This document shows, in pieces, positions 8,195 through 64,000 of a DNA stretch of 64,000 nt. The DNA comes from a virus. Position 1 is the first letter of the stretch. Each line of letters starts with the position of its first letter. A program made the translations under genes and the position numbers. Under the pieces are notes generated by a model. The model was not told the DNA's origin, searched no databases, and worked only from the letters and a program-made list of their open reading frames with translations. The stretch spans positions 1-64,000 of IMG/VR virus record IMGVR_UViG_3300021962_000094. The stretch is one strand, 5' to 3'.

Positions 8195-8608
8195 ATGAAA
8201 TCCTACAGTTTGCTATACGAAGCTAGCATATATGATTATTTGATTTGGGAGCCTCAAGGCAAACTCAAGCATATTGCTGACACACTTGATACATACAATA
8301 ACTTTTCGTCAGACGATTTGTTCAGAGGCATGTCCAAGAAGGAGTTGGATCTATTACAAAAGCATGGCAGAGTAACTTCGAAGGGTAAAGGTAACACACG
8401 TAACATATATGGTAGTTATCTAGCTAGTGATTTCAAATTGAGTGCTAGATTTGCTTTGGTAAACTATCGTGATAAGAAAGAGGGAGTCATAATCGTCGTA
8501 GATAAAAATAAGTTACCCGATTTAAAAAGTGTTGATCCAGGCAACTTTGTTACTAGTTATATACCGTTAGAAGCAGTAAAACAAATTATAGATTTATCAA
8601 AGTTATGA
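8195..8608 (+). CDS. ADP-ribosyltransferase-like protein with prohead-targeting-like N-terminus
   Basis: The N-terminus MKSYSLLYE-A resembles the capsid-targeting segment of T4 internal proteins and ends in L-Y-E, matching the L/I-x-E cleavage rule of the gp21 protease. The rest has the order seen in ADP-ribosyltransferase folds: LFRGM (Arg in the first strand), a YGSYLASD-F-LSARFA block, EGVIIVVD strand and an IPLEAVKQI end. The catalytic Glu cannot be placed with certainty, so activity is open. T4 packages and injects the comparable enzyme Alt. The stop codon overlaps the next start (ATGA). Confidence 0.5.
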   Translation: MKSYSLLYEASIYDYLIWEPQGKLKHIADTLDTYNNFSSDDLFRGMSKKELDLLQKHGRVTSKGKGNTRNIYGSYLASDFKLSARFALVNYRDKKEGVIIVVDKNKLPDLKSVDPGNFVTSYIPLEAVKQIIDLSKL

Positions 8609-8784
8609 GCCAACTCAAATTAAACAAAGCAGATGCACAAAAGAAAGTATACGAACTAACCGAGAAGCTTCTCTTCGTAAAGAAGGACTTTAAGGATGTA
8701 GCAGCCGGATACAAGGAAAAGATCAAGGAAATTGAAAACGAAATCAAGGCTGTTGTAGAAGAATCTACGGCTACAACTCCGTAA
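8605..8784 (+). CDS. Small coiled-coil protein, 59 aa
   Basis: Starts in an ATGA overlap with the previous gene, so the two are translationally coupled. The sequence is strongly helical with heptad-like spacing (KLLFVKKDFKDVAAGYKEKIKEIENEI) and a Thr-rich end. Not recognised; a partner or regulator of the upstream protein is possible. Confidence 0.7.
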   Translation: MSQLKLNKADAQKKVYELTEKLLFVKKDFKDVAAGYKEKIKEIENEIKAVVEESTATTP

Positions 8785-8786
8785 TA

Positions 8787-8894
8787 TCATTTTTGTTTTT
8801 TAACACGTTTCTTTTTGGGTTTACGATCCTTATCAGTTGTCAATCGGATGCTATTTATAAACTCTTCCGTCTTGACATTTAATTTTTTCTTCAT
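8787..8894 (-). CDS. Possible small basic protein, 35 aa, minus strand
   Basis: A 35-codon minus-strand frame from ATG at 8894 encodes MKKKLNVKTEEFINSI followed by a Lys/Arg-rich tail ending KKKRVKKQK. It occupies an otherwise empty gap and diverges from the gene at 8908. No ribosome-binding site is seen. The longer frame up to 9044 lies opposite the plus-strand gene and is discounted. Confidence 0.35.
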   Translation of the reverse strand: MKKKLNVKTEEFINSIRLTTDKDRKPKKKRVKKQK

Positions 8895-8899
8895 ATAAT
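8872..8899 (+). promoter_or_regulatory. Sigma70-like promoter, near-leaderless
   Basis: TTGACA, 16 nt, TATAAT: a consensus promoter. The -10 ends 8 nt before the ATG at 8908, leaving essentially no 5-prime leader. Confidence 0.7.
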
Positions 8900-8907
8900 T
8901 AAGTATC

Positions 8908-9300
8908 ATGTCAAGGATCAAAGAAAAAGTTAAACGTAAGAAACGTATAAAGAAAGATATTGTTGTTGACCGTGAGATATCTAAGTTGACAAAAGGTTTG
9001 GAAGTTGTTAACAAGACATATAGTGCTAACGGCAATCCATTCAAAATCTACAAGAATATTCCAACCGAATTGGCGATAGATCATATGACTGAAAAGGGAC
9101 GTAAGATATTGTCGTCCATATATCCAGACAGTCATGAAATTTATTTGGTTCAGTATCATCGCCCGGGTGAACCAACATATCCGCATGGCGGAGTAAAGAT
9201 TTACAATAAAACATTGGGTGAACAAAGGTGTGTTTATCCAGATGCTGTGGTTAAACACAAAGACGTTGAGTATTACAATAAATCAATGGAAATCGATTGA
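8908..9300 (+). CDS. Hypothetical protein, 130 aa
   Basis: The first 25 residues are very basic (KRKKRIKK), then a folded alpha/beta region with Pro, Gly and Tyr-rich turns (QYHRPGEPTYPHGGVKIYNK). No family recognised. It has its own consensus promoter, suggesting early expression. The basic arm could contact nucleic acid. The 104 nt after its stop hold a CCCT/AGGG small hairpin and nothing else. Confidence 0.7.
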   Translation: MSRIKEKVKRKKRIKKDIVVDREISKLTKGLEVVNKTYSANGNPFKIYKNIPTELAIDHMTEKGRKILSSIYPDSHEIYLVQYHRPGEPTYPHGGVKIYNKTLGEQRCVYPDAVVKHKDVEYYNKSMEID

Positions 9301-9404
9301 CATACATTCATCTAAGTGATATTGTAACGACCCTGTAGGGACTGATAATCCCCACAGTAACTAATTATATCAATGCTATAACATAATAACACATATAAGA
9401 ATAC

Positions 9405-9611
9405 ATGCAAACTAAGATTAAGAAAAACGAAAATATTAATGAGTCAGTTGATCGTTTTGTTGTGTTGCGAAATGGCGCTCGTGTTTCTGATGAGGAATAT
9501 ACGAACCGTAGTGAGGCACAACCAGAATTTGATCACTGGAACAAAGTTATTACTCGTTGGCCAGATGGTAGTAAGTTGGAAATCGTTAACCTCTCAAAGA
9601 AAGGTAGGTAA
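9405..9611 (+). CDS. Hypothetical protein, 68 aa
   Basis: Small soluble protein with the stretch DRFVVLRNGARVSDEEYTNRSEA, a strand-turn-helix pattern seen in many small phage proteins. It is followed after 2 nt by the next gene, with which it forms a two-gene unit ended by the terminator at 9877. Function unknown. Confidence 0.7.
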   Translation: MQTKIKKNENINESVDRFVVLRNGARVSDEEYTNRSEAQPEFDHWNKVITRWPDGSKLEIVNLSKKGR

Positions 9612-9613
9612 TT

Positions 9614-9844
9614 ATGGGACTACGTGAACAAATTAAAACCGCAAATTCTGAATCAGAAATTTCGACCTTGTTGTCAAAGGGTAGAAATTTTGAGTTTGCA
9701 TCTGAGCGAACCAAACAGTCTTGGAGATCCACAGCAAAGTTTAGACTTGCTCAATTGACTAACGGAGATACAGCACAAACACCAGAGAAGTCTAGTGAGA
9801 CGAAGAAGGTCAAAGGCAAGACGGGTAAGAAGAAAGCTGTCTAA
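9614..9844 (+). CDS. Hypothetical protein, 76 aa, basic tail
   Basis: Helical N-terminal region and a Lys-rich C-terminal tail of about 25 residues (ETKKVKGKTGKKKAV). Starts 2 nt after the previous stop. The tail suggests DNA or RNA contact; no family recognised. Confidence 0.7.
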   Translation: MGLREQIKTANSESEISTLLSKGRNFEFASERTKQSWRSTAKFRLAQLTNGDTAQTPEKSSETKKVKGKTGKKKAV

Positions 9845-9876
9845 TAAATAGTAGATACAACTTGGTTAAATGATGA

Positions 9877-9909
9877 GGGCGCCAAAATTATGGCGCCCTT
9901 ATTATTTTT
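9877..9909 (+). terminator. Rho-independent terminator
   Basis: Perfect 8-bp stem GGGCGCCA/TGGCGCCC, 6-nt loop, then TTATTATTTTT. Confidence 0.88.
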
Positions 9910-9916
9910 GCGATAG

Positions 9917-9924
9917 ATATTTAT
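9917..9924 (+). promoter_or_regulatory. ATATTTAT motif before gene at 9929
   Basis: Ends 4 nt before the ATG, immediately after a terminator, as expected for a promoter opening a new unit. Confidence 0.55.
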
Positions 9925-9928
9925 TAAC

Positions 9929-10303
9929 ATGGCAAAGAGGTTTCAACCAAAAATGATACCATCGGAGTTTAAGTCGATGGAGGAGTTTGTTATAAAGCAT
10001 AAATCGGAGTTGACAGAACAAGTTGTCACCGCCATAGAATTTGCATTAAAAAACAATTTATCAAATGTTGAGGTTTTCAATTTCAGTAAAACTGATTTTA
10101 TAGTGGTTTTGAATATATCTACGTTCAAAGAGAACTTGGACAACATTTACAACTACTATATTAACACGGAACAATATGAATTCTGTGAACGTGTTTTGAA
10201 CCTTCAAAAGATAATTAACCAAGAAAAACCTAATGAGCAAGAAAAAAGACACAAGTCCAAAAGTTCCCCAAAATCCAAAAATAAGGGACTCAATCCAAAT
10301 TAA
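9929..10303 (+). CDS. Hypothetical protein, 124 aa
   Basis: Helical protein with a Lys/Ser-rich disordered tail. The central part, TDFIVVLNISTFKENLDNIYNYYINTEQYEFCERVLNLQKII, looks like a small all-helical domain. Its last 71 nt overlap the start of phoH in another frame, so the pair is probably coupled. No known family. Confidence 0.75.
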   Translation: MAKRFQPKMIPSEFKSMEEFVIKHKSELTEQVVTAIEFALKNNLSNVEVFNFSKTDFIVVLNISTFKENLDNIYNYYINTEQYEFCERVLNLQKIINQEKPNEQEKRHKSKSSPKSKNKGLNPN

Positions 10304-10943
10304 AAGTGTAGACTTAACTGAAAAACAAAAACAGCTCATAGAAGTATTACGAGACAAAAACACAAAACTAGTATTTGTAGCCGGTCCAGCCGGAACATCA
10401 AAAACATACACTGCAATTCTTGCCGGTTTACATCTTATTAATGATAAACGTGTAAGCGAACTGATTTATATCAGAACAGCTGTCGAAAGCAGTGACAGCA
10501 AGTTGGGATTTTTGCCTGGTGAAATGGACGACAAGATGAGTCCATATATACAACCACTCGTTGATAAGCTTGAAGAAATGTTGCCTAAACATGATATCGA
10601 AAAGCTTAAAAAGGAAGAACGTATTCATGGAGCACCAGTTAACTTTCTTCGTGGTCTAAACTGGAATGCTAAATGTATTGTTGCCGACGAAGCACAAAAC
10701 ATGACCAAGAAGGAACTAATCACTTTGGTCACAAGAGTAGGTGAGTTCAGTAAGTTGTATGTTTGTGGTGACCCAGATCAAAGTGATATCAATGGCAAGA
10801 GTGGTTTGACTGCCATTATGAATGTGTTCGACGACGCAGAAAGTCGTGAGAATGGAATTCATATATTCAGATTTACTGAAGACGATGTAGTGAGAAGTGG
10901 TCTGGTCAAATTTATATTAAAAAAACTCAAAAAGTTTACCTGA
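10233..10943 (+). CDS. phoH: PhoH-like ATPase
   Basis: A PhoH-family P-loop protein of 236 residues. Walker A GPAGTSKT lies at 51-58 and Walker B IVADEAQNM at about 149-157, with the family sequence RTAVESSDSKLGFLPGEMDDKM after the first helix and CGDPDQSD further on. PhoH proteins are NTPases related to superfamily 1 helicases and are very common in marine T4-like phages; their exact task, perhaps RNA handling or phosphate stress, is unsettled. The gene begins inside the preceding one. Confidence 0.93.
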   Translation: MSKKKDTSPKVPQNPKIRDSIQIKSVDLTEKQKQLIEVLRDKNTKLVFVAGPAGTSKTYTAILAGLHLINDKRVSELIYIRTAVESSDSKLGFLPGEMDDKMSPYIQPLVDKLEEMLPKHDIEKLKKEERIHGAPVNFLRGLNWNAKCIVADEAQNMTKKELITLVTRVGEFSKLYVCGDPDQSDINGKSGLTAIMNVFDDAESRENGIHIFRFTEDDVVRSGLVKFILKKLKKFT

Positions 10944-10952
10944 TTGATAATT

Positions 10953-10960
10953 ATATTTAT
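10953..10960 (+). promoter_or_regulatory. ATATTTAT motif before fibre gene at 10966
   Basis: Ends 5 nt before the ATG; no Shine-Dalgarno sequence is present. Confidence 0.55.
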
Positions 10961-10965
10961 AACAT

Positions 10966-13503
10966 ATGGCAGTATTAACAAATAAAGCGAGACCAGTCCC
11001 AGCCCTACCAGAAACAACAGGTAGTAGGGCTGGTGATTTTCTGATAATTCAGGACGTAACTAGTAATGTAACCAAAAAGATAACGTTCAGTAATTTGGTC
11101 AACTCTATATTTTCGGCACCACCAAGCACAGTTGAATTTACTGGGTCTTTTTACGTTCCGACTGCATATACTTTAACTTCAAAGGGTCTTACAAAATTGG
11201 GTGTCGGTCCAAGCGGTTTACCTTCAATAAATACATACTATGATGGAGTGCTTGGCAATCAAGTCTATATAAGAACCAACATATTTGATGTAGTCAGCAA
11301 TGAAGGTAATATTACTGTAACCAATACACTTTTCTTGGAAGGTAGTTCGGTGTTGATTAATGGTAATACTGAGTTCAACAGTCCTATCACGGCATCTTAT
11401 GGAAGAATTACCAACCTAATAGCTACAGTTACAGGCAACTTTTTTGGTGGGTTGTATGGAGATGTATACTCTGCAACTGGTAATAAAGTATTGGAGAATG
11501 GTGCTGGTCCAGCAAAAGATGCGCAATTTACTGGAACTTCTAGTTATGCATCAAGGGCAAAATCTGCATCATATGCACATGTTGCTACAAATGCATTTAC
11601 GTGTTCTACAAATGTTGTTTTTGCTGATACCGCTACGTCCGCTTCATATGCTCTTAGTGCTAGTCAAACACAAGTGGCGAAAACCGCATCATATTTAGAA
11701 TACAGTATAAATAATGGTTCGGCATCGTATGCGGTTTTTGCTGGAAGTGCATTGAACGTGATCAACACTCCTACAACAGCTGTGAGTGCAAGTTATGCTT
11801 TAAAATCAGCTGCTACAGATGAAGTTGACGGAGTTGGTCTTGGAAATGGTAGTGGCAATTTCAATATCGCATTTTTCTCACAGTCTGTGGTTGCGTCAAA
11901 TGTAGGAATGAAACGAGTTACAAATGGCACAGGCATTGGTAATTATCAATTGTTGGAGATATCTTCATCAAGATATTTGAACGGGTTGAGAGTAGCATCC
12001 AGAGGATATAATGGACAAAATCAATCATTGATCTCGTTCTATAATTTAAATAATGCAAAGAATCTAATCAACTATCCAAACATTTCTGGATATACGATTG
12101 GATCGATCAATAGTGGAAGTTTAACATTTATTGCTCCACTCGGTAGTGCAGAATTTTCTTCTTCAACCAGAACAGCTGTAGGTAGTGCTACCGAAACTTA
12201 CGGGCTTGTAAGCAGAAGATCTGGATATTATTTCTGGCCATATCTAGCATCAAATACTCCATCAAGAGAAGGATCTATTGGTATTGGTTTCCAACCACCT
12301 ACATCAGCTGATACCGATCCTACATTGCTTGGTAAGTTTAGTATCAGATGTTTTAGCTCAAGCAAAGCACACGTTGGTAAAGTCACGGGACAAGCTTTGA
12401 CTGGAACTGTGAAGTTGCCTGAGTATGCAATTTATGTAGACTATGGTTCTAGTAGTTATAATCCAATTTTCAGTGTGGGTGCTTCTGGTTCAAATGCTGG
12501 TGACGTTTATGTTGGTGGTGACATGACCGTGGCAGGAACATTAAATGCTACACTTGGTTATGGAACTCAAACTGCAAATGCATTTGCAGTAAGATATCCG
12601 CTTGGTGCGATAACTTACGGAGATTACATCTTCTATTGTCAATCCAATTTCACAAACAAAGGATACTTTTTTAGACTAAATCAAGTTACAAATGAAGTAA
12701 CTAAAATTTTTGACGGAAATAATACTTTTTCTCCAGCAAGACAGTTTTATGTTGGTCACATGGCACTTCATAACTTTGACAACAATGGTGTCACTGGAGA
12801 TTATATAGTGGTCACCGATAGTTCATACATATATGCATTCGGAGCTTTGACTTCTGGAACTCCAACAATCACAGAATTTTCAACTGGCGGAGGTAATTTT
12901 TATCAATTTAAATGCGCGTATGTAGATGCGTCTTCTGGTTTACCTGGAACAGGTGCAGGAACGCCAACACACCCTACTTTCTACTTGTTACCCGACTCGT
13001 TTCAAGCTGGAGGTAATACGGCCAATGGTCTAACAATGTATAAGATTTACTGGAATGGATCTGCATATACCTATGCTACAGTAGGAACAGCATTGGATAT
13101 ATTGAATAATTCTCTTGTATTGGGTAATTCAAATTTGGTGAGTATAAATGGCACCATTAACTACAATACAATAACTAACATATATAATCCAGTTAAACGT
13201 AGATGGTATTGTATTAATAACAACAGTGGTATGTGTGATATATTCAATATCAATGCGTATAGTTCTAATGATATTGGAGCATGGTGGGCCCAGGCAGCAG
13301 CAATTAGAGATCCACAATTGCAATATGTAAAGACTATTGTAATTCCACAACAGGGTTCTAATTACTGGACTGATTCTAACTGGGAATCATATGGTTTGGA
13401 GTATGACACAACCACGGGTCAAGAAAAGTTCTGGACATGGAATCGTGTCAACAACAGTTCATTGACGGGTATTGTGGGTAAATCACCATACTACGGTAGC
13501 TAA
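10966..13503 (+). CDS. Tail fibre protein with SASYA repeats
   Basis: An 845-residue fibre-type protein. The N-terminal 45 residues (GDFLIIQD, KKITFSNLV) resemble the start of the next fibre and are probably a shared baseplate anchor. Residues about 185-285 contain repeated SASYA-type units, typical of triple-stranded beta fibre shafts. The C-terminal 300 residues are rich in Tyr, Asn, Gly and Trp and are probably the receptor-contact part. It begins a run of three fibre genes and has no chaperone domain of its own. Confidence 0.82.
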   Translation: MAVLTNKARPVPALPETTGSRAGDFLIIQDVTSNVTKKITFSNLVNSIFSAPPSTVEFTGSFYVPTAYTLTSKGLTKLGVGPSGLPSINTYYDGVLGNQVYIRTNIFDVVSNEGNITVTNTLFLEGSSVLINGNTEFNSPITASYGRITNLIATVTGNFFGGLYGDVYSATGNKVLENGAGPAKDAQFTGTSSYASRAKSASYAHVATNAFTCSTNVVFADTATSASYALSASQTQVAKTASYLEYSINNGSASYAVFAGSALNVINTPTTAVSASYALKSAATDEVDGVGLGNGSGNFNIAFFSQSVVASNVGMKRVTNGTGIGNYQLLEISSSRYLNGLRVASRGYNGQNQSLISFYNLNNAKNLINYPNISGYTIGSINSGSLTFIAPLGSAEFSSSTRTAVGSATETYGLVSRRSGYYFWPYLASNTPSREGSIGIGFQPPTSADTDPTLLGKFSIRCFSSSKAHVGKVTGQALTGTVKLPEYAIYVDYGSSSYNPIFSVGASGSNAGDVYVGGDMTVAGTLNATLGYGTQTANAFAVRYPLGAITYGDYIFYCQSNFTNKGYFFRLNQVTNEVTKIFDGNNTFSPARQFYVGHMALHNFDNNGVTGDYIVVTDSSYIYAFGALTSGTPTITEFSTGGGNFYQFKCAYVDASSGLPGTGAGTPTHPTFYLLPDSFQAGGNTANGLTMYKIYWNGSAYTYATVGTALDILNNSLVLGNSNLVSINGTINYNTITNIYNPVKRRWYCINNNSGMCDIFNINAYSSNDIGAWWAQAAAIRDPQLQYVKTIVIPQQGSNYWTDSNWESYGLEYDTTTGQEKFWTWNRVNNSSLTGIVGKSPYYGS

Positions 13504-13529
13504 ATTTAAAGTATAAAAGAAACAATACG

Positions 13530-13537
13530 ATATTTAT
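13530..13537 (+). promoter_or_regulatory. ATATTTAT motif before fibre gene at 13544
   Basis: Ends 6 nt before the ATG. Confidence 0.55.
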
Positions 13538-13543
13538 TAACAT

Positions 13544-14836: not shown

Positions 14837-14839
14837 TTT

Positions 14840-16744: not shown

Positions 16745-16755
16745 TTTTTCGTATC

Positions 16756-16785
16756 TTGACAAATATATATTCTTGATGGTAAATT
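16756..16785 (+). promoter_or_regulatory. Sigma70-like promoter of the heat-shock gene
   Basis: TTGACA, 18 nt, TGG then TAAATT. It is followed by a 70-nt leader, the longest of the TTGACA promoters here. Confidence 0.55.
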
Positions 16786-16789
16786 ACCG

Positions 16790-16862
16790 TCACGGCAACG
16801 CTCGAGTGAGGTTGCTATGATAATAAGTTCAATAGAATTATTATAAAAAAGAAAGGAAATAT
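16790..16862 (+). promoter_or_regulatory. Structured leader of the heat-shock gene
   Basis: GCAAC/GTTGC forms a hairpin at about 16795-16814 and ATAATAA/TTATTAT another at about 16819-16843. GTTGCT upstream could pair with the AAAGGA ribosome-binding site, as in ROSE RNA thermometers of small heat-shock genes. The pairing is only a possibility read by eye. Confidence 0.3.
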
Positions 16863-17345: not shown

Positions 17346-17370
17346 TTACACAGTAAATTGGTTATATTCT

Positions 17371-17399
17371 ACCCTCCATTTAAAGTGGAGGGTTTTTTA
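17371..17399 (+). terminator. Rho-independent terminator
   Basis: CCCTCCA/TGGAGGG stem with T6, 26 nt after the heat-shock stop codon. Confidence 0.9.
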
Positions 17400-17408
17400 T
17401 TTGTATTG

Positions 17409-17416
17409 ATATTTAT
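17409..17416 (+). promoter_or_regulatory. ATATTTAT motif before gene at 17421
   Basis: Ends 4 nt before the ATG, just after a terminator. Confidence 0.55.
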
Positions 17417-17420
17417 ATAT

Positions 17421-18536: not shown

Positions 18537-18583
18537 AATAAAAATTCGTTTTTCATACGTCTAACTATATATTACTGTTAACT

Positions 18584-20023: not shown

Positions 20024-20050
20024 TTCGATAGAATAAATAGTATAAAAACA

Positions 20051-20079: not shown

Positions 20080-20080
20080 C

Positions 20081-20087: not shown

Positions 20088-20092
20088 TGAGT

Positions 20093-20443: not shown

Positions 20444-20445
20444 TT

Positions 20446-54889: not shown

Positions 54890-54910
54890 CCTAGAGTAAA
54901 CTAAATCAAG

Positions 54911-54940
54911 ACCCCGGCCCTAAAAAGCCGGGGTTTTTTG
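54911..54940 (+). terminator. Rho-independent terminator
   Basis: CCCCGGC/GCCGGGG stem with T6 after the sheath gene. Confidence 0.92.
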
Positions 54941-54996
54941 TTTATTTGAACAGACTAGATTGATAAATTAATATAGATATTTTTTGAGAACACCAC

Positions 54997-55004
54997 ATAT
55001 TTAT
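54997..55004 (+). promoter_or_regulatory. ATATTTAT motif before gene at 55010
   Basis: Ends 5 nt before the ATG and follows a terminator. Confidence 0.55.
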
Positions 55005-55009
55005 ATGCG

Positions 55010-55792
55010 ATGATTAGTCTATCAGACCTTCTAACAGAGGCTAAATTGCCAGCAAGTGAACAAGACATGGACTTGTATGCTAAAAAATACAAGAAGACCA
55101 TGGATTATTTGCGTAGTAAAAACAAAGTGTTACTATTGACTACAAGTAATCGTTGGTCTCAACATAAAGACGATGTTCCAAAAAGCAGTCAGTTAGCCAT
55201 TAAAATTCAAGAGTTGCTTGGCAAAGAAAAAGTAACATTGATTGACACAACAAAACTACACATCGTTCCATGTGAAGGTAATGTGAGTAGCAACAAAGAG
55301 TTTGGTGGCAACCATTGTGGAACGATTGGTGCTTTATTGAAAAACAAAGAACAAAATCCAAGTGGTCATCATCGTTGTTGGGCTAGTGTAAATGAGAAGG
55401 GTGACGAACTTTGGAAGATCAGTAAGGAGTTGTTTGAGAGTGATTGTGTATTATTTTTTGCAAGTGTTAGATGGGGTCAAGCCAACGGTTATTATCAAAA
55501 GTTGATTGAACGTTTGACTTGGATTGAAAATAGACACTCGACTTTGGGTGAATCCAATCTAGTTAAAGATATTGATGCTGGATTTATTGCTGTTGGTCAG
55601 AACTGGAACGGTAAACACGTTGTTCAAACACAAAAGAGTGTTCTTGAATTTTTTGGATTCAAGACACCGGACCAATTGTTTTGGAATTGGCAATTTACAG
55701 ATGATGCCCTTGATGAAACCAAACGTTCATACTTAAAAGGCGTATCTACATTCGAAAAAACATTTATTAAACCATATGATAAAGCTGAGTAA
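55010..55792 (+). CDS. Flavodoxin-fold NAD(P)H-FMN reductase-like protein with prohead-targeting-like N-terminus
   Basis: 260 residues. The N-terminus MISLSDLLTE-A ends in L-T-E, a gp21-type cleavage site. After about residue 40 a flavodoxin-like fold is visible: KVLLLTTSNRWSQHKDDV (phosphate-binding loop), SDCVLFFASVRWGQANGYYQKLIERL (flavin-binding part) and a GFIAVGQNWNGKHVVQTQKSVLEFFG half. Such proteins reduce flavins, quinones or metals. The short leader suggests packaging in the head and injection, an inference. The next gene starts inside its last codons. Confidence 0.72.
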   Translation: MISLSDLLTEAKLPASEQDMDLYAKKYKKTMDYLRSKNKVLLLTTSNRWSQHKDDVPKSSQLAIKIQELLGKEKVTLIDTTKLHIVPCEGNVSSNKEFGGNHCGTIGALLKNKEQNPSGHHRCWASVNEKGDELWKISKELFESDCVLFFASVRWGQANGYYQKLIERLTWIENRHSTLGESNLVKDIDAGFIAVGQNWNGKHVVQTQKSVLEFFGFKTPDQLFWNWQFTDDALDETKRSYLKGVSTFEKTFIKPYDKAE

Positions 55793-56828
55793 TATTTTGT
55801 CGGAAGTTCTTAGAGAAGGTGGTGCTGGTGGTCACATGGAACATCCATTTGACTTTGCATCCAACGGAAAACAACTAGTTGACATCTTTCAGAAGTCCAT
55901 TAACTCTTTGGAAAAGGGAACTGGTAGTGTAAAGATTGACGGTGTTAATGCAAGTATTCGTTTGGTTAATGGAGAATTTGTGATGGACCGTGGTAGTGCA
56001 AAACCATTAGACATCAAGGGAATGCGTCCACAAGATCTATCTGCTAGATTTTTACCAAATCCAGAAACAGGTGCTGAACATGGATTCATCAAGATTGGTT
56101 CTACTGTAATTCAAATTTTTGATGATGCAATTCCATCAACAACAAACGAGTTGAAGGCTCTTGGTTTGTTGAACAATCCAAACATTTTATTGAACGTTGA
56201 ATATGTTGAGGGACAAACAAATGTTTTGGGTTACGAAGACATCGGTAACTTCTTGGCAATTCACGGTTTGAAAGAAATCAAACCCAAGACGTTTGGTAAG
56301 GATGGTAGTGTCAAATCCAGAGTAGCTACTGAAATTCCTTATGATAAGACAGTCATGCAATCATATATCAATAAGTTGAATGTGTTTGCTAAGAAACGTG
56401 GATTTAAGGTATTGGGTAGTGTTGACACCAAGTTTAAGACCAAGCCAAACCTCTCCAAACCACTCGGTGAAAAGGTTACTTTGTATCCACAAGGTAATCC
56501 AGTCACAAAGAGTTTGAAGGATTGGTTAAAAGATGTAAATATTCAAACACCATTGATTACCCGTGAACAGTTCCAAAAGGCTGTTGCTAGTAAGAATATT
56601 GCCATGGATTTTGAGGGACAAGATATAGATAAAGTTGTCAATGATACAGTTGTATATTTGGCAACGATCAAGCTTGGTGATGAAATATTAAAGAATGCTA
56701 CTAGTGAAATTGGTGATCTTGAAAAACACGAAGGAATCGTGGTCAGAGATCCTAGTATTCACAGTAGTCCATTTAAAATAACTGGTAGTTTCATTATTAA
56801 GGGACTACAAAGTGGTTTTGGGAAATAA
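55776..56828 (+). CDS. Nucleotidyltransferase (ligase-like) with prohead-targeting-like N-terminus
   Basis: 350 residues. The N-terminus MIKLSNILSE-V ends in L-S-E. GGAGGHMEHPFDF follows, a conserved-looking lead. SVKIDGVNASIR has Lys53 in a K-x-D-G motif, the adenylated Lys of covalent nucleotidyltransferases (DNA and RNA ligases, capping enzymes). VLNVEYVEG (motif III-like), EGIVVRDP (motif IV-like, near 318) and FIIKGLQSGFGK (motif V-like) follow in order. It could seal RNA or DNA nicks; the true substrate is unknown. It overlaps the reductase gene by 17 nt. Confidence 0.75.
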   Translation: MIKLSNILSEVLREGGAGGHMEHPFDFASNGKQLVDIFQKSINSLEKGTGSVKIDGVNASIRLVNGEFVMDRGSAKPLDIKGMRPQDLSARFLPNPETGAEHGFIKIGSTVIQIFDDAIPSTTNELKALGLLNNPNILLNVEYVEGQTNVLGYEDIGNFLAIHGLKEIKPKTFGKDGSVKSRVATEIPYDKTVMQSYINKLNVFAKKRGFKVLGSVDTKFKTKPNLSKPLGEKVTLYPQGNPVTKSLKDWLKDVNIQTPLITREQFQKAVASKNIAMDFEGQDIDKVVNDTVVYLATIKLGDEILKNATSEIGDLEKHEGIVVRDPSIHSSPFKITGSFIIKGLQSGFGK

Positions 56829-56846
56829 AATAAATAAATATTGGTT

Positions 56847-57494
56847 ATGAAAAGAGCACAAGGCAAAAGCAATCTGGAGATTGTAAAAGATTATCTGGAC
56901 GGAAATCGACCATTTATACAAGTTGGTTACACCGAAGACATAAATAACGCCACACGTAAAGAAGGTGAAGAGTGGGAGGATGGTCAAGGTCGTAAATGGG
57001 TTTGGAAGAATGGTAGCAAACGTCGAGTTCCAAAGAAGGTTATAATCGACAACAAACAAATTTGTAAGCAATGTAGTGCCGACGTTCGTTGGGGTAACTA
57101 TTTGGATTCACAAGTTTGGCCCAAGACACATTTGTGTTATGACTGTTTCACTAACAATGAAACTAAGATGAAGATGGATGGAACTTGGGAATACTTTGAC
57201 AAGATCCGTGACTTTAAGAATGAGAAAGCAATTTTGTCTGAATACAAAAAGAAGTTTGATGAAACTCTCAAGTGGTGTGAAGAAAAAGAGGGTAAACCTC
57301 TTGAGTTTATCAACGAAGATGGTTCTATAGAAAAGTGGGAGGGTGAGACCGGTCTTGATAAGATCAAACAAGATGTTTTGAAGGATCTTGAGTATGTAAA
57401 TGCTAGATTGTCAGAAATCGACACGTTTATTGACAATTTAGAAAAAGAATATGAGTCAGCAAAATCTAAGAGAAATAATAAAGCAGGAGTATAA
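56847..57494 (+). CDS. Zinc-ribbon protein before terminase, 215 aa
   Basis: ATG at 56847 is preferred over TTG at 56841. Cys73, Cys76, Cys97 and Cys100 form a zinc ribbon (CKQC ... CYDC), followed by a long helical C-terminal half. It overlaps the terminase gene by 44 nt. T4 has the small terminase gp16 in this place, so a role in DNA recognition for packaging is possible, but no sequence similarity to gp16 is visible. Family not recognised. Confidence 0.75.
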   Translation: MKRAQGKSNLEIVKDYLDGNRPFIQVGYTEDINNATRKEGEEWEDGQGRKWVWKNGSKRRVPKKVIIDNKQICKQCSADVRWGNYLDSQVWPKTHLCYDCFTNNETKMKMDGTWEYFDKIRDFKNEKAILSEYKKKFDETLKWCEEKEGKPLEFINEDGSIEKWEGETGLDKIKQDVLKDLEYVNARLSEIDTFIDNLEKEYESAKSKRNNKAGV

Positions 57495-59064
57495 GAAGTG
57501 TGTTGAAAATCCGATATACTTCATGAAGAAGTATGTCAAGATTCAACATCCCGTCAAGGGAACCTGCAACTTTGACTTGTATCCCTTCCAAGAAGGTGCT
57601 CTACAAGACATGGTGGATCATAGTCTCAACATCATTCTAAAGAGTCGTCAGATGGGTATTTCTACTTTGACGGCAGCATATAGTTTGTGGTTGATGACGT
57701 TCCATACAGACAAGAACATTTTGATCATCAGTATCACGCAAGAGACTGCAAAAGAAATTGTTACAAAGGTTAGATTTGCCAATGACAATCTTCCTACATG
57801 GTTAAAAGTTCCATGTGTAGAAGATAATCGTTTGTCACTACGTCTTAAAAATGGCTCTCAAATTAAAGCTGTGTCAAGTGCTGGAACCGCAGGTCGTTCC
57901 GCCGCATTGTCACTTCTAATCATTGACGAAGCTGCATTCATTGATGGTATTGAAGAAATTTGGTTGTCTGCTCAGTATACGTTATCAACTGGTGGTAGAG
58001 CTATTTTGTTATCGACCCCTAACGGTGTTGGTAACTTTTTTCACAAGACATGGGTTGCTGCCGAAGCTGGAGAAAATGGTTTCAATACAATTAGATTACC
58101 ATGGCATTTACATCCAGAACGTGATCAAGCTTGGCGTGACAAACAAACTGAATTGTCTGGTGTAAAAGGTGCTGCTCAAGAGTGTGATTGTGACTTTTCA
58201 ACATCTGGTAATCAAGTTGTGTCGGTTGATACTCTTGAGTTTTACAAACAAACTTACATCAAAGATCCAGTTGAAAAACGTGGAGCAAGTCAAGATTTGT
58301 GGATTTGGGATCGTCCAGACAATAGCAAAAACTATATCGTATCTGCTGACTGTGCTCGTGGTGATGGTGCTGACTATAGTGCATTTCATGTATTTGATGT
58401 TGACACATTGACACAAGTAGCGGAGTATAAGGGTCAGTTAACTACCAAAGATTATGGTAACTTGTTGGTGGCAATTGCAACTGAATATAACAGTGCATTG
58501 CTTGTTGTAGAAAATAACAACATTGGTTGGGGAACACTACAACAAATTATTGATAGAGATTATCAAAACACTTTCTATAGCACACCAGATCTGAACGTGG
58601 TTGATGTAGAACACAATTACACAAACAAACTTAATGCTCAAGATAAAAAATTAGTGCCGGGATTTACAACCACCAACAAGAATAGACCATTGATGGTAAG
58701 TAACATGGAATCGTGTTTCAGAGACAAGTCAGTCACTATAAGGTCTATTAGGACATATGAGGAACTCAATGTGTTTATCTGGAATGGTCCTAAGGCAGAA
58801 GCAATGAGGGGTTATAATGATGATTTGGTTATGGCTCTTAGTATTGGTCTGTGGGTTCGTGGAACCGCATTAAAGTTGAGAACAGAACAAATGGCATATA
58901 CACGAACAATGTTGAGCGGAATAACAAAAGTAACAAATACAACACCTGGTCCGTCATCACAATATAAAATCATTCAATCGCCTCAAGAAACGTGGCAATT
59001 TGAAACTGGAGGTGGTGGAGTTCCAGGCACAGGTAAAAAAGAATCACTAACTTGGTTGTTGTAA
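57451..59064 (+). CDS. gp17: Large terminase subunit, gp17-like
   Basis: 537 residues. The ATPase has SRQMGIST (about 63-70) as its Walker A variant and LLIIDEAAF (about 155-163) as Walker B with the catalytic Glu, then STPNGVGNFFHK (coupling motif). The nuclease has SADCARGDGADYSAF (about 298-312) with catalytic Asp residues and a further VVENNNIG acidic strand. It pumps DNA into the prohead through the portal and cuts it. Portal follows 24 nt later, as expected. Confidence 0.96.
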   Translation: MSQQNLREIIKQEYKKCVENPIYFMKKYVKIQHPVKGTCNFDLYPFQEGALQDMVDHSLNIILKSRQMGISTLTAAYSLWLMTFHTDKNILIISITQETAKEIVTKVRFANDNLPTWLKVPCVEDNRLSLRLKNGSQIKAVSSAGTAGRSAALSLLIIDEAAFIDGIEEIWLSAQYTLSTGGRAILLSTPNGVGNFFHKTWVAAEAGENGFNTIRLPWHLHPERDQAWRDKQTELSGVKGAAQECDCDFSTSGNQVVSVDTLEFYKQTYIKDPVEKRGASQDLWIWDRPDNSKNYIVSADCARGDGADYSAFHVFDVDTLTQVAEYKGQLTTKDYGNLLVAIATEYNSALLVVENNNIGWGTLQQIIDRDYQNTFYSTPDLNVVDVEHNYTNKLNAQDKKLVPGFTTTNKNRPLMVSNMESCFRDKSVTIRSIRTYEELNVFIWNGPKAEAMRGYNDDLVMALSIGLWVRGTALKLRTEQMAYTRTMLSGITKVTNTTPGPSSQYKIIQSPQETWQFETGGGGVPGTGKKESLTWLL

Positions 59065-59088
59065 TACTTATATATAAGATAGCATTAT

Positions 59089-61065
59089 ATGGATGACAAA
59101 TCATTTCAAGAGTTAAAAAATAGGTCACTTTACGCTAGGCTGAAGAGACTGTTCAGCAACGACGTAATTGTTCGTAACGTGGGTGGCAAAAAACTCAAGG
59201 TCATCGACACCGATGAAATTCAGTATGCTACCGACCGTAATAGTTTAAGAGATCGTTTCAATCGTCTCAGAACTACTGCGTATAATTCGTATACCCGTGA
59301 CTTCAATTTGTCATATCAAAGCAGTCGTGTAGAACTGTTTCGTGATTATGATACGATGGACATGGACCCAATTTTGGCATCCGCATTGGACATTTATGCT
59401 GATGAATGCACCACTCGTAATGAAATGGGTGACATTATCACTGTTCGTAGCACCAACGATGATATCAAGAGCATCTTAAATAATTTGTTCTATGACATCT
59501 TGAATATCGAATTCAACCTTTGGTCGTGGACTCGTAGTTTGGTCAAGTATGGCGATTTTTATTTGAGAATGCACATCAGTCCAGAGTATGGTGTTTACAT
59601 GGTTGAACCACTCAGTAGTTACTATGTGACCCGTGTAGAAAATGCGCATCTACAAAATAAGAATTTCGTAAAGTTCCAAGTCAATCTTCCATATGGTAAC
59701 AAGATTGAAGATTTGGAAAACTATCAGATGGCTCATTTCCGTTTGTTGAGTGATAGTAATTTCTTGCCTTATGGTAAGAGTATGTTGGAAGGTGCTCGTC
59801 GTGTTTGGAAACAGTTGAGTTTGATGGAAGACGCAATGTTGATTCATCGTATCATGCGTGCTCCAGAAAAACGTATTTTCAAGATTGATATTGGTAACAT
59901 TCCGCCAAACGAAGTTGATAATCACATGGAGAGAATCATTCAACAAATGAAGAAGACTCCATATTTGGATCAAGCAACTGGTGATTACAATCTTCGTTTC
60001 AATCTACAGAACATGGTTGAGGACTTTTTCTTGCCAGTTCGCGGTGGTGATAGTGGAACTGCTATTGATAACTTGCCAGGTCTTGAATGGACTGGAACAG
60101 ACGATATCGAATATCTACGTAACAAGATGATGGCAGCTCTTAAAATTCCTAAGGCATTCTTGGGTTACGACGAGAGTTTGAGTGGTAAGGCTACACTTGC
60201 TGCCGAAGATATTCGTTTTGCCAGAACGATCCAACGTATTCAACGTATCATTGTTAGTGAGTTGAACAAGATTGCTGTGGTTCATTTGTATAGTCAAGGA
60301 TACAGAGACGAGTCACTCGTTGATTTTAGTCTTGAATTGACCAATCCTTCTACAATCTTTGAAAAGGAAAAGATTGATGTATGGAAGAGCAAGGTTGAAG
60401 TCAGTAAGGACATGCAAGAACAAAAGTTGTTTAGCAAGAAGTGGATTTATGAAAATGTCTTTGGTATGAGTGATCAAGACATGATTATGTTGCAAAAACA
60501 ACTTGTTGATGATGCTAAGGGAACTTACAGATTTAAGCAGATCGAAGAAGACGGTAACGATCCTGCATTGAACTTCCTCAAGGCCAAGGGCTCAGAAGGA
60601 GAAGACGGAGCCGGAGGCGCGGAAGGGGGTAGCGCTGGTGGAGGCGAAGAAGCGGCAGGCGGAGGAGAAGTAGGAGGAGGTGCTGAAACCAGCGCTACAG
60701 CTCCCGCAGGTGGAGAAACTGCTCCAGCTGGTGGTGGAGAAACGCCAAAATTGACTGAAAAAGTTAAGATGTCTGCTCATGAACGTGCGGAAGCAAACCG
60801 TAAAAAAGAAGAAAACCGTGATAGGGACCAAACTGGTAGAAAAGATGCTAGAAAATACCCATTTGGTGAAGATCCACTTGGAACACTAGAGAACAATAGT
60901 GACAGTGATTTGTCTCCTACTCACAAATATAAGAAACGTTCTCCATTGTCTTTAGAATCAATGGAATCACTATCGACAATTCTACAAGGATTGGATAAGT
61001 CCAAAGAAATTTTGAGAGAAGGAGTATCAGGATCTTATATGGACGAAACAAACATCAAAGAATGA
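59089..61065 (+). CDS. gp20: Portal protein, gp20-like, with Gly/Glu-rich tail insert
   Basis: 658 residues; T4 gp20 has 524. Core signatures include VELFRDYDTMDMDPILASALDIYADECT, YMVEPLSSYYVTRVEN and FLGYDESLSGKATLAAEDIRFARTIQRIQ. Residues about 500-555 are an insert of Gly, Glu and Ala repeats (GGAEGGSAGGGEEAAGGGE), then a basic charged tail. The dodecamer is the DNA gate and neck anchor. The low-complexity insert is unusual for portals and may face the capsid interior. Confidence 0.94.
   Translation: MDDKSFQELKNRSLYARLKRLFSNDVIVRNVGGKKLKVIDTDEIQYATDRNSLRDRFNRLRTTAYNSYTRDFNLSYQSSRVELFRDYDTMDMDPILASALDIYADECTTRNEMGDIITVRSTNDDIKSILNNLFYDILNIEFNLWSWTRSLVKYGDFYLRMHISPEYGVYMVEPLSSYYVTRVENAHLQNKNFVKFQVNLPYGNKIEDLENYQMAHFRLLSDSNFLPYGKSMLEGARRVWKQLSLMEDAMLIHRIMRAPEKRIFKIDIGNIPPNEVDNHMERIIQQMKKTPYLDQATGDYNLRFNLQNMVEDFFLPVRGGDSGTAIDNLPGLEWTGTDDIEYLRNKMMAALKIPKAFLGYDESLSGKATLAAEDIRFARTIQRIQRIIVSELNKIAVVHLYSQGYRDESLVDFSLELTNPSTIFEKEKIDVWKSKVEVSKDMQEQKLFSKKWIYENVFGMSDQDMIMLQKQLVDDAKGTYRFKQIEEDGNDPALNFLKAKGSEGEDGAGGAEGGSAGGGEEAAGGGEVGGGAETSATAPAGGETAPAGGGETPKLTEKVKMSAHERAEANRKKEENRDRDQTGRKDARKYPFGEDPLGTLENNSDSDLSPTHKYKKRSPLSLESMESLSTILQGLDKSKEILREGVSGSYMDETNIKE
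60594..60750 (+). repeat. Gly/Glu/Ala-rich low-complexity region in portal gene
   Basis: GGAGGNGNA-type repeats encoding Gly, Glu and Ala stretches inside an otherwise ordinary portal gene. GC is much higher than in flanking sequence. Confidence 0.75.
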
Positions 61066-61095
61066 TATAAATCCGATGATTTTCCAAATTTCAAT

Positions 61096-61103
61096 ATATT
61101 TAT
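61096..61103 (+). promoter_or_regulatory. ATATTTAT motif before gene at 61121
   Basis: Ends 17 nt before the ATG. AGAG lies between, a weak Shine-Dalgarno candidate. Confidence 0.4.
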
Positions 61104-61120
61104 AAATAATAGAGAACTAT

Positions 61121-61993
61121 ATGCGCAAAAAAGCTAAACATTCTAAGTTTAAGAATAGCGGAGTATTGTTTGAGTTGCTCACGCGACAGATTACCGCAGA
61201 TATATTGGCAGGTCGTGACGAATCGTTCACCAAGAATTTGATGTTCAAATATTTTAACGAAAGCACTGCGCTCGGAAAAGAATTTCAACTATACAATTTT
61301 ATAGTAAGTCAATCTTCTAAAAATGCCGAGTCTGCTGATCGTATTTTGAACGTAGTATTACAAACTCGTTCAAAACTAAATGAACGTGAGTTGAACTCCG
61401 AAAAATACAACCTCATCAAAGAAATCAAGGAGCAGTTCAACATCGATGAATTTCTAAAGAATAAAATTCCAAACTATAAACTTTATGCCTCGGTATACAA
61501 GTTGTTTGAAAACCAAGGATCTGATGAAGTTAAGTTTGATGTAGAAGAAATTTTGGAAGCAAGAGAGTGTGTGGTAGAAAGTTTGACAAGAGAAAAGAAG
61601 AACGAAGAACAAGCTTTGGATGTATATAGTTCTCAACCAGCCGAAGTGAAGTTACTCGCATATAAGTTCTTGATCGAAAACTTCAATAAGAAGTATTCTT
61701 CTTTGTTGCCTGCTCAAAAGGTATTGTTGAAAGAATTTATTACAAACGTTTCCAACACTAACAAGTTTACTGAATTTGTTAATAACGAATACAAGAGGGT
61801 TGCTGACCTTCTCAAGGAAAGATCGATTTTGGTTAAGAATGATATTATCAAGATCAAGCTTAACGAAACGGTTGCTCAGCTTTCAAACAAAACACTTACA
61901 GGCATTGTAAAGGAGAATCAATTGACTCCTCTTTTGAGTGCTTATGAGTTGATAGAAGAATTGAATAAACTTGCTGATGAAAAAGCTTCTTAA
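61121..61993 (+). CDS. Head-module protein, 290 aa
   Basis: All-helical protein between portal and protease. The N-terminus is basic (MRKKAKHSKFKNS), and charged amphipathic helices run through to the end. No membrane segment or catalytic motif is visible. Position and composition fit a head-assembly or prohead-core protein found at this site in marine T4-like phages. The next gene begins inside its last codons. Confidence 0.72.
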   Translation: MRKKAKHSKFKNSGVLFELLTRQITADILAGRDESFTKNLMFKYFNESTALGKEFQLYNFIVSQSSKNAESADRILNVVLQTRSKLNERELNSEKYNLIKEIKEQFNIDEFLKNKIPNYKLYASVYKLFENQGSDEVKFDVEEILEARECVVESLTREKKNEEQALDVYSSQPAEVKLLAYKFLIENFNKKYSSLLPAQKVLLKEFITNVSNTNKFTEFVNNEYKRVADLLKERSILVKNDIIKIKLNETVAQLSNKTLTGIVKENQLTPLLSAYELIEELNKLADEKAS

Positions 61994-63086
61994 AGAATCA
62001 GGCGATCCATTTAGAGATATTGTAAAAAAATACGCTCAATTGTATCGTGATAATGAATTGGCACGCATTGATAAAGCGCAATATCACGCGTGGCTACAAG
62101 CACATGCTGACAAGATTACACCAGCTGTAAAAGCAAGTGTCGAAAAAAAAGTCAAGGATCAGTTAAAGAATAAGAATGAAGCATCCACCAGTAGTGCTGC
62201 TGGTGCTTATATGACTCCCTTTGCCTTTTCTCGTAAAGGGCCTGGAAATGTTAGAGCTGCAACACAACTTGGTTTCAAGTTGGCTAAACCAGTCAAGAAA
62301 AGTCCTGGATATGCTTTAGAAAACCAAATGTATAGTGAGCCAGCATATGTGACACCAGCACAGAACATTGAACCTGTAGATACCTACGAGGATGAAAATG
62401 GATTGGTTCAACATGGAGATCCAGAATTAGATCCAGGTTTGGCAGGCAAGACACAAACAACTCTTCCAACTACAGAACAACGTAATTCTGTAAAGAAGAT
62501 CGTTGAAGGATATCGTGCTTCTAGATTTTTGACTAGAGAAGCGGAAGCTGGCCAACAACCTGCTCCAGCTCAACCTCAACAACAAGCTGCTCCTCAACAA
62601 GCTGAACCCGCTGTTAATGTTCAATCATATGACATCCAACCAGACTTTACTCAATTTGACACCAAGTTGAAGGATGCAACTGAACAAACTAAGTTGGAAC
62701 TTCAAAAGAAGATTCAAGACCAAATTTTAAACAAAAAGATTGTGGTTCGTGCTAGCAAGGGATACAAACAACCAGAAACAGATTACACAATCAATGTTAC
62801 TGGTGTTCAAATCGATTACTATTATGATCGATATGTAATCATCATTCTAGGTCGTGAAGAAAGTAAACAAAAGGCAGCCAAGTTCTTTGTAAAGCCTGGA
62901 TTCAAGATTAAGATTTTGGGACCAGCCGATGTAAAGCAAAGAGACAAGTATCAAATTGCTAAATCAAAAGCATTGGTTGATCCATCACAACAAACGTCTG
63001 CTGGAGCATCTAATGTTGTAACTTCAAAACAACAACCAGCTAAACCAGAAGAAAAACCTGAGGCACAACCAGCCCTACCAGCTTAA
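61977..63086 (+). CDS. Head-module protein with prohead-targeting-like N-terminus, 369 aa
   Basis: ATG at 61977 is preferred over TTG at 61971. The N-terminus MKKLLKE-S ends in L-K-E, a gp21-type site. The protein has a helical first part (QAHADKITPAVKASVEKKVKDQLK), the sequence TPFAFSRKGPGN, a Gln/Ala/Pro linker (about 190-215), and a C-terminal beta domain (KIVVRASKGYKQPETDYTINVTGVQIDYYYDRYVIIILG). A second low-complexity Pro tail ends it. Likely packaged or part of the prohead core. It precedes the protease by 1 nt. Confidence 0.72.
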   Translation: MKKLLKESGDPFRDIVKKYAQLYRDNELARIDKAQYHAWLQAHADKITPAVKASVEKKVKDQLKNKNEASTSSAAGAYMTPFAFSRKGPGNVRAATQLGFKLAKPVKKSPGYALENQMYSEPAYVTPAQNIEPVDTYEDENGLVQHGDPELDPGLAGKTQTTLPTTEQRNSVKKIVEGYRASRFLTREAEAGQQPAPAQPQQQAAPQQAEPAVNVQSYDIQPDFTQFDTKLKDATEQTKLELQKKIQDQILNKKIVVRASKGYKQPETDYTINVTGVQIDYYYDRYVIIILGREESKQKAAKFFVKPGFKIKILGPADVKQRDKYQIAKSKALVDPSQQTSAGASNVVTSKQQPAKPEEKPEAQPALPA

Positions 63087-63087
63087 T

Positions 63088-63696
63088 ATGAAAACAGTAT
63101 TAATTGACGTATTACCATTTGAATTCAAAAAGACCGCACTTAACGAATCGTTGAGTAGTGGTAAACTTCTTGTGACCGGCACACTACAACGTGCTGAAGC
63201 AAAGAACCAAAATGGTAGAATTTATCCAAAAGAAATTTTAGAGCGTGAAGCTACTAAATACATGGACAACTTTGTTAAGCAACGTCGTGCCATGGGTGAA
63301 CTTGACCATCCAGAGTCTTCTGTTGTTAACTTGAAGAATGTCAGTCATAACATCGTAGACATGGGTTGGGATGGTGATGATTTGGTTGGAACTGTAGAAA
63401 TTCTTCCAACTCCAAGTGGTAACATTCTTAAGGATCTTCTCAAGGCTGGTATTCTATTGGGTATCAGTAGCCGTGGTTTGGGTAGTGTTAAGAAAGATAT
63501 GAGAGAGGGTGCCGATGTGGTTCAAGACGATTTTGACTTGATCGCATTTGATTTTGTAAGTAATCCTTCTACTCAAGGTGCATTCATGTATCCACAAGGA
63601 AAGATCACTGAAAGTGTAAATCCTTCTGGAAATAGAATCATCAATCCTTATTCAAATATTGAGAGAATCATTCACGATATCATCTCAGAGTTGTAA
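63088..63696 (+). CDS. gp21: Prohead protease, gp21-like
   Basis: 202 residues of the T4 gp21 (U9-type) serine protease. QNGRIYPKEILEREATKYMD, the catalytic His74 in ELDHPES and catalytic Ser in GISSRGLGSV (Ser127 or Ser128) are in place, then DFDLIAFDFVSNPSTQGAFM. It matures the prohead by cutting core and shell proteins after L/I-x-E. Several proteins in this window carry such a site near the N-terminus. It starts 1 nt after the previous stop. Confidence 0.95.
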   Translation: MKTVLIDVLPFEFKKTALNESLSSGKLLVTGTLQRAEAKNQNGRIYPKEILEREATKYMDNFVKQRRAMGELDHPESSVVNLKNVSHNIVDMGWDGDDLVGTVEILPTPSGNILKDLLKAGILLGISSRGLGSVKKDMREGADVVQDDFDLIAFDFVSNPSTQGAFMYPQGKITESVNPSGNRIINPYSNIERIIHDIISEL

Positions 63697-63701
63697 GTAG
63701 T

Positions 63702-63791
63702 ATGTCTGTCAAATCAAAAACCTTGGAAAGAAGACTTCTTGGGTTTTGGAGTATTAATAAGAAAATAATTGAGACAGAATCACAATTTTAA
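63702..63791 (+). CDS. Tiny protein, 29 aa
   Basis: A 29-codon frame starts 5 nt after the protease stop and encodes a basic peptide (MSVKSKTLERRLLGFWSINKK). Tight spacing supports it; short length does not. Not recognised. Confidence 0.45.
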   Translation: MSVKSKTLERRLLGFWSINKKIIETESQF

Positions 63792-63793
63792 CT

Positions 63794-63801
63794 ATATTTA
63801 T
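63794..63801 (+). promoter_or_regulatory. ATATTTAT motif before gene at 63807
   Basis: Ends 5 nt before the ATG. Confidence 0.55.
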
Positions 63802-63806
63802 TGTAT

Positions 63807-64000
63807 ATGATAAAGCTAAGACATCTAGTAGAGAATTCCACAGAAACCGCTTATTCTCCTTTGACCAAGGAAGAGAAGATTAAACTACGTGAGACAGTAA
63901 AGGCTTATAACGAATATCGTAAGAGTCTCAAAGCTGATTGTGTATATTCTACCGCTTCCAAGATTATGGAAGCAGTCAATTTGGCTGAACGCTATGCTAT
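63807..64000 (+). CDS. Prohead core or scaffold-type protein, start only
   Basis: The first 64 residues are visible; the gene runs off the right end. The N-terminus MIKLRHLVE-N ends in L-V-E, a gp21-type site, then a charged helix (LTKEEKIKLRETVKAYNEYRKSLK). The place after the protease is that of T4 gene 22, the main scaffold, which is also cleaved by gp21. Identity is inferred from position only. Confidence 0.65.
   Translation, partial: MIKLRHLVENSTETAYSPLTKEEKIKLRETVKAYNEYRKSLKADCVYSTASKIMEAVNLAERYA

Follow-up and report, generated by a model that had tools for sequence, protein, structure and literature searches.

Introduction

The capsid targeting sequence of bacteriophage T4 is a ten-residue N-terminal leader; in that of the internal protein IPIII, the main determinants of targeting are residues 4 and 7, while processing relies on residues 8 and 10. 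The head protease gp21 cleaves after L/I-x-E, and the internal proteins and Alt are delivered into the host (accessible passages of PMC9026906). The same passages already propose this leader as a route for various proteins into T4-like heads, and the general idea is not new. We analyzed a viral DNA stretch of 64,000 nucleotides, hereafter the window (positions 1 to 64,000 of the 65,752-base record IMGVR_UViG_3300021962_000094), in which three proteins encoded at 8195, 55010, and 55776 start with leaders of this form and a gp21-type S77 prohead protease is encoded at 63088. Sequence comparison gives good support to a T4-type targeting and cutting leader carried by cargo that is not that of T4.

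Two other groups of described systems are related in principle. The ejection proteins of phiKZ and SPN3US also have a propeptide cut after x-x-E by diverged gp21 relatives, but these propeptides are longer and the phiKZ site is S/A-x-E (passages of PMC9026906 and PMC5694885). Head-packaged ADP-ribosyltransferases, including T4 Alt, share the principle that enzymes are produced along with the head proteins and then injected (passages of PMC9503650), whereas the 8195 protein has no detectable relationship to them.

The window shares with T4 the ten-residue leader, its positions 4, 7, 8, and 10, the L/I-x-E site, and an S77 protease in the head cluster. An earlier note on this DNA had compared these leaders with those of T4, and the comparison holds more firmly than it was worded there, the conserved positions being the targeting and processing positions of IPIII. 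As that note had also proposed, the predicted cargo is unlike that of T4: a flavin mononucleotide (FMN)-reductase-like protein, a ligase-like protein, and the 8195 protein are found instead of IPI-III and Alt. This clade further differs from T4 in having two leader registers (E9 and E10) and a second site at a domain edge. The nine T4-like cyanophage NMNATs examined carry the same leader, and a related domain is fused to the ligase-like domain in the relatives L127-L129 and in Microcystis phage Mel-JY01.

Results

Leader Positions Conserved among Relatives Coincide with the T4 Map

The source record is a fragment, and the leader scan was therefore run on related contigs and isolates and not on the whole genome of this phage. 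By terminase, the nearest isolates were Mel-JY01 (57%) and Flavobacterium phage immuto (52%). Relatives were taken from viral contigs (the best 80 of 165 matching stretches for 55010, 76 loci for 55776, and 22 stretches from 20 loci for 8195), and those matching only past query residue 25 were left out of the alignments.

The 260-residue protein encoded at 55010..55792 (plus strand) begins with MISLSDLLTE-A, and its ten-codon leader (55010..55039, plus strand) has a predicted cut after E10. Hydrophobic residues at 4 and 7, L/I at 8, and E10 were kept in 46 of the 51 distinct relatives; the exceptions are four proteins with an additional residue (LLLQE) and one that starts further upstream. In the alignment, L4, L8, and E10 were invariant (51/51), and positions 9 and 5 each take five residues. 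The gene at 55776..56828 (plus strand) overlaps the end of 55010 and encodes a 350-residue protein starting with MIKLSNILSE-V, whose ten-codon leader (55776..55805, plus strand) has its first predicted cut after E10. Its targeting and processing positions were kept in 38 of 44 distinct relatives; in the alignment, L8 was present in 42/42 and E10 in 38/42, with at least six residues at position 9. Other conserved leader positions were I2 and, in the 55010 family, D6. The 137-residue protein encoded at 8195..8608 (plus strand) starts with MKSYSLLYE-A, and its leader of nine codons (8195..8221, plus strand; predicted cut after E9) was kept, in register E9, in 13 of 14 distinct relatives.

The conserved leader positions of the 55010 and 55776 families thus coincide with those that serve targeting (4 and 7) and processing (8 and 10) in T4, and this agreement with the IPIII position map is the strongest single argument of this work. 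It also bears on another explanation, in which the leader is a docking helix for the portal, the tail, a membrane, or a polymerase and is not cut by a gp21-type protease. An amphipathic helix at the N-terminus could have many binding partners, and no cut was observed here, but the L-x-E core is kept while its middle residue varies, and the inserted residue of the LLLQE relatives preserves L-x-E. A second L/I-x-E, again with changing middle residues, is also preserved at a domain edge; none of these features would be needed by a docking helix alone. We consider a docking helix quite improbable.

The Strict Leader Form Is Enriched at N-Termini

The earlier note had listed five proteins whose N-termini end in L-x-E (8195, 55010, 55776, 61977, and 63807). 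All five are present as described, but the motif as it was worded is weak. In its place, we scored a loose pattern, M.{1,2}[LIVFYM].{1,3}[LIV].E, which was found in 5.25% of N-termini and 2.52% of positions after internal methionines (family-weighted over 374 families, proteins of at least 75 residues) and was dropped as evidence because it is only about twofold above this control. The strict pattern, M..[LIVFYM].{1,2}[LIVFM][LIVM].E, that is M-x-x-h-x(1-2)-h-h-x-E, was found in 2.27% of N-termini and in 0.086% of positions after internal methionines, a 26-fold enrichment (raw counts, 45/1508 proteins and 12/7020 internal methionines). The family-weighted count was 8.5 at the N-terminus, compared with a mean of 1.07 (maximum 3.73) at 46 shifted positions and a mean of 0.87 (maximum 3.25) in 200 shuffles. 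Proteins under 75 residues were dropped from the enrichment and shift tests, and those under 60 residues from the comparison of genomes with and without S77. Of the five listed proteins, 8195, 55010, and 55776 have the strict form, while 61977 and 63807 miss it. The enrichment figures are an undercount because an early version of our home-made gene caller misplaced gene starts in this clade: it showed the leader of the 55010 family in 19/51 relatives, and starts set by alignment show it in 46/51.

Among T4 ATG-initiated open reading frames (ORFs) of at least 60 residues, only four genes had the strict pattern, ipII, ipIII, 24, and 2, all of them virion-associated (4/4). The T4 record lists the gene 24 product as cleaved by gp21, both ipII and ipIII as internal virion proteins, and gene 2 as the DNA end protector. 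With the home-made caller alone, gene 24 was the sole match (1/192). The pattern occurred in 13/980 called genes of isolates with an S77 protease, in 46/1831 of all S77 genomes, and in 0/418 called genes of SPO1, phiKZ, and N4, which have no S77 match (Fisher p = 0.013 for the isolates and 1.4e-4 for all S77 genomes, values that serve only as guides since the clade contigs are related). phiKZ (0/237 genes called) is a control for the L-x-E form because its diverged gp21 relative cuts at S/A-x-E (passages of PMC9026906). T4, S-SM1, RM378, SPO1, N4, and phiKZ were read in abutting stretches, so genes spanning the borders were lost; KVP40 was sampled as 10 stretches of 20 kb out of 244,834 bases, and contigs G005, G006, and G007 were covered to base 96,000 only.

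The N-termini could also be alike by chance, helped by short-motif bias. The loose pattern, just twofold above its control, would agree with this, as would isolated matches such as the S-SCSM1 recombinase and the 61977 family, in which L/I-x-E-S is kept in just 13 of 17 relatives. Against it stand the 26-fold enrichment of the strict form, its conservation in three unrelated families, and the T4 control. Overall, we regard chance as very improbable; it is disfavored for 8195, 55010, and 55776 but may still apply to 61977.

Strict Leaders on Other Genes and an Apparent Exchange

Elsewhere in the nine clade contigs, the strict leader was found on a GP88-type protein (PF17338), on a Mom-like protein, and, in contig G007, on two paralogues of 155-156 residues. 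It was also present on a DnaJ-domain protein at another locus and on unassigned proteins of Mel-JY01 and immuto. The G007 paralogues are 80.6% identical over 144 residues, yet their leaders share only 13 of 33 nucleotides without gaps, and in one of these leaders 26 of the 30 nucleotides after the start codon are identical to those in the leader of a GP88-type gene on this contig. Across families, 463 leader pairs averaged 12.4 matching nucleotides; three scored above 26/30 and look like a single family divided by the cut-off. The comparison of relatives suggested in the earlier note, looking for leaders moved onto other genes, thus gave one case in which, by nucleotide identity, a leader looks exchanged between unrelated genes, with convergence as the alternative.

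Mel-JY01 encodes two paralogues of about 220 residues (L242:11276-11926 and L242:13056-13718) with similar leaders and no family match; 31 records, from phages of Vibrio, Dickeya, Alishewanella, and Pseudomonas, contain relatives. A further leader gene of Mel-JY01 lies at L243:10976. An immuto leader protein (L241:3366-3806, 146 residues) has a glycine-rich start, YLGEGDYGAVFLV, that is protein-kinase-like by eye, and had no Pfam or NCBIfam match.

The Ligase-like Protein and Its NMNAT Fusions

The three cargo proteins had no match in 50,697 phage records by protein search, PDB sequence and profile searches with them gave marginal matches only, and a nucleotide search of window positions 1-25000 against phage records returned nothing useful. 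In the 55776 protein, described in the earlier note as ligase-like, K53-x-D-G, E142, E319-G, and K334 were invariant in 23 aligned sequences, and we take the KxDG and EG motifs to be those of the nucleotidyltransferase/ligase superfamily. The RNA_ligase profile matched 5 of the 23 sequences below the cut-off (best E 0.033), with 55776 itself at 14 bits for a cut-off of 27. For a ligase-like protein, the motifs speak in favor and the profile match is sub-threshold.

In L127, L128, and L129 (734-736 residues) and in Mel-JY01 (639 residues, record positions 11243-13162), a cytidylyltransferase/NMNAT-like domain lies N-terminal to the ligase-like domain. The N-termini of these fusions are leader-like, for example MSQLTKFLVEG in L129; L127 and L128 miss the strict pattern through a Tyr at position 7, and Mel-JY01 misses it through one additional residue. 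Shorter NMNAT-ligase fusions, L341 and L342, were found in contigs related to the window.

A second predicted gp21 site, L-R-E at residues 12-14 of 55776 (55806..55817, plus strand), directly precedes GGAGGHM, so the mature form probably starts at GGAGGHM. Of 52 distinct contexts, 50 have a [LIVMF]-x-E tripeptide immediately ahead of GGxGGHM, in 14 different versions; these are not 50 independent events because the sequences are related. In the Mel-JY01 fusion, the junction reads IAE|GGLGGHM. In the two exceptions (LTC), the gene is apparently interrupted at that point. The site occurs both beside the leader and more than 200 residues into the fusion, a pattern that a conserved protease cut would be expected to leave.

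Separately, an ORF encoding a CxxC motif, perhaps an intron or a homing element, appears to interrupt the ligase-like gene at GGAGGH|M (G007 67188-68042 and L220:11026).

Cyanophage NMNATs Carry the Leader and Occur in Virion Proteomes

All nine cyanophage NMNATs examined, eight fetched homologues and that of S-SM1 (532 records with NMNAT, 40 of them listed), have this leader at the N-terminus, which in one of them lies two codons downstream of the annotated start; some of the listed records align only from residue 71-81 on, so that their N-termini were not covered. The S-SCSM1 enzyme begins with MKSFLQFLKEA, which has the T4 spacing. NMNAT is among the 45 proteins of caesium chloride-purified S-SCSM1 virions (PMC9602691), and a cytidylyltransferase was found in the virions of S-SZBM1 (PMC9146016) and S-CREM2 (PMC10665884). 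The accessible passages of these three reports name no leader and treat the enzyme's occurrence in virions as unexplained or as possible carry-over. S-SCSM1 has three annotated genes with the strict leader, encoding NMNAT, a 106-residue hypothetical protein among structural genes, and a recombinase, and its virion list by itself shows no leader enrichment.

The accessible literature, with subscription papers mostly outside it, contained no text joining the capsid targeting sequence with an auxiliary metabolic gene, and earlier notice is possible; none of the literature matches listed joins the leader term with the NMNAT term, within the same limits. What is new here is the NMNAT fusions with a conserved junction site, the NMNAT leaders, and the apparent leader exchange.

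Identity of the Proteins at 55010 and 8195

The flavodoxin-like assignment of 55010 in the earlier note is favored by a weak profile match and by fold comparison, but 55010 itself misses the FMN_red profile, which matches 8 of 19 relatives (best E 0.0026). Its structure model has a predicted local distance difference test (pLDDT) score of 56; the top PDB fold match was indigo reductase (Foldseek E 0.023), nothing in the PDB reached E 0.001 or better, and many lower rows were unrelated DAHP synthases. An FMN-reductase/flavodoxin-like fold is thus weakly suggested by the relatives and the model.

The 8195 protein had been proposed as ADP-ribosyltransferase-like. It gave no Pfam, PHROGs, or NCBIfam match and no meaningful PDB match, its structure model (pLDDT 42) was too poor for use, and one of 11 aligned relatives (L152) has Gln in place of the candidate catalytic residue Glu126. 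We regard this identity as unsupported.

The Head Gene Cluster

The cluster on the plus strand comprises the terminase large subunit (57451..59064; PF03237, E 1.7e-10), a gp20-like portal protein (59089..61065; PF07230, E 4.5e-71), and the S77 prohead protease (63088..63696), recognized as gp21 in the earlier note and matching PF03420 (E 2.4e-31) and the PHROG head maturation protease (E 5.8e-54). The S77 protease was found in 12/12 related contigs searched.

The same strand carries a 369-residue probable head-core protein (61977..63086) with the start MKKLLKE-S, a doubtful leader from the weakest of the five families, and the beginning of a 181-residue head-core candidate (63807..64000, ending at record position 64352) with the start MIKLRHLVE-N, in whose family the scored leader form is found in 29/30 relatives. 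The two had been listed among the leader-bearing proteins. L-x-E is present in both, but their location next to the portal and gp21 genes, where T4 has genes 67, 68, and 22, makes head-core proteins a better reading than delivered enzymes; 61977 lies in the place of 67/68.

Late-Promoter-like Sites and Neighboring Genes

The sequence TATTTATA resembles a late promoter and lies just upstream of 8195 (8183..8190, plus strand) and of 55010 (54998..55005, plus strand); in the window, it also precedes genes at 387, 10966, 43020, and 61121. In the nine clade contigs, it was found within 40 nucleotides upstream of 11/33 leader genes and 142/818 other genes, giving 153/851 called genes against 1/801 control windows inside genes, and often very near the start codon. 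Its reverse complement, TATAAATA, which we take to be the T4 late element, precedes only 13/851 called genes. These sites may be late promoters whose transcripts would have a very short 5' leader or none, and their presence before 8195 and 55010 fits late expression, but they are common to many genes.

Upstream of 8195, the plus strand carries a phage-encoded transfer-messenger RNA gene (window 7532-7916; tag AEENVVSYDFSYGEVAALAA by ARAGORN; Rfam RF00023, 120.5 bits, full length) and eleven tRNA genes (window 5259-7318). Two minus-strand ORFs (5776-6045 and 6105-6449) overlap the tRNA genes and are unlikely to be genuine genes.

Discussion

We favor, with a probability of about 0.62, the reading that the proteins at 8195, 55010, and 55776 are head cargo. 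The leaders and their conservation, the protease gene, the fusions, and the junction motif are seen in the sequences, whereas docking, packaging, cutting, and delivery are inferred for this phage. The leader of nine to ten residues would act like the T4 capsid targeting sequence and dock the three proteins into the core of the prohead. The S77 protease encoded at 63088 would then cut after L/I-x-E, so that the leader is shed, and the mature proteins would remain among the packaged DNA and enter the host along with it. In the fused relatives, a cut at the junction would release two enzymes from one precursor. The packaging step is backed, in relatives, by published proteomes for one cargo type, NMNAT.

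Several observations weigh against this reading. Two 55776 relatives lack E10 (MIKLNDILNKIVSE), the 8195 relative L162 has no leader, and neither does the NMNAT fusion L341 at its N-terminus. T4 ipI and alt are not among the strict matches, so the recall of the pattern is incomplete, and RM378 has an S77 protease yet a strict leader in 0/118 genes. In S-SCSM1, just 1/47 coding sequences labeled as virion protein has the strict leader, and the recombinase match is likely a false positive. Moreover, the authors of the proteome studies deem virion carriage likely and carry-over possible (passages of PMC9602691 and PMC10665884).

The leader might also bring these proteins into the prohead and be cut there, with the proteins then working in the assembly of the head or on the DNA inside it instead of being delivered to act on the host. 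The leader form is indeed common to head-assembly proteins (T4 genes 24 and 2, the 63807 family), and a ligase or an NMNAT could serve DNA inside the head. However, the FMN-reductase-like protein and, in relatives, the DnaJ-like and Mom-like proteins have no evident head-building role, and the T4 internal proteins and Alt are delivered into the host (passages of PMC9026906). We find such a head-restricted role unlikely.

Beyond the delivery of head cargo, we propose only tentatively that the gp21-type protease is also a polyprotein maturase. In relatives, an NMNAT-ligase precursor brought into the prohead by a single leader would be cut at [LI]-x-E|GGxGGHM, an NAD-making enzyme (NAD, nicotinamide adenine dinucleotide) and an adenylating ligase would be delivered at the first moment of infection, and leaders would be mobile between genes. 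If leaders move between unrelated genes, T4-like phages could make a small enzyme into injected cargo. A ligase that uses NAD while NMNAT recycles nicotinamide mononucleotide is a speculation drawn from the fusion alone.

If the delivery of head cargo is correct, injected proteins could be recognized by the T4 targeting leader throughout the T4-like phages, even in clades with no isolate. It would explain the repeated presence of NMNAT in purified cyanophage virions, which has not been separated from carry-over, in a way that is directly testable. It would also suggest that a head protease is able to split apart enzymes translated as a single chain, and it would name candidates for the first-minute takeover of environmental bacteria.

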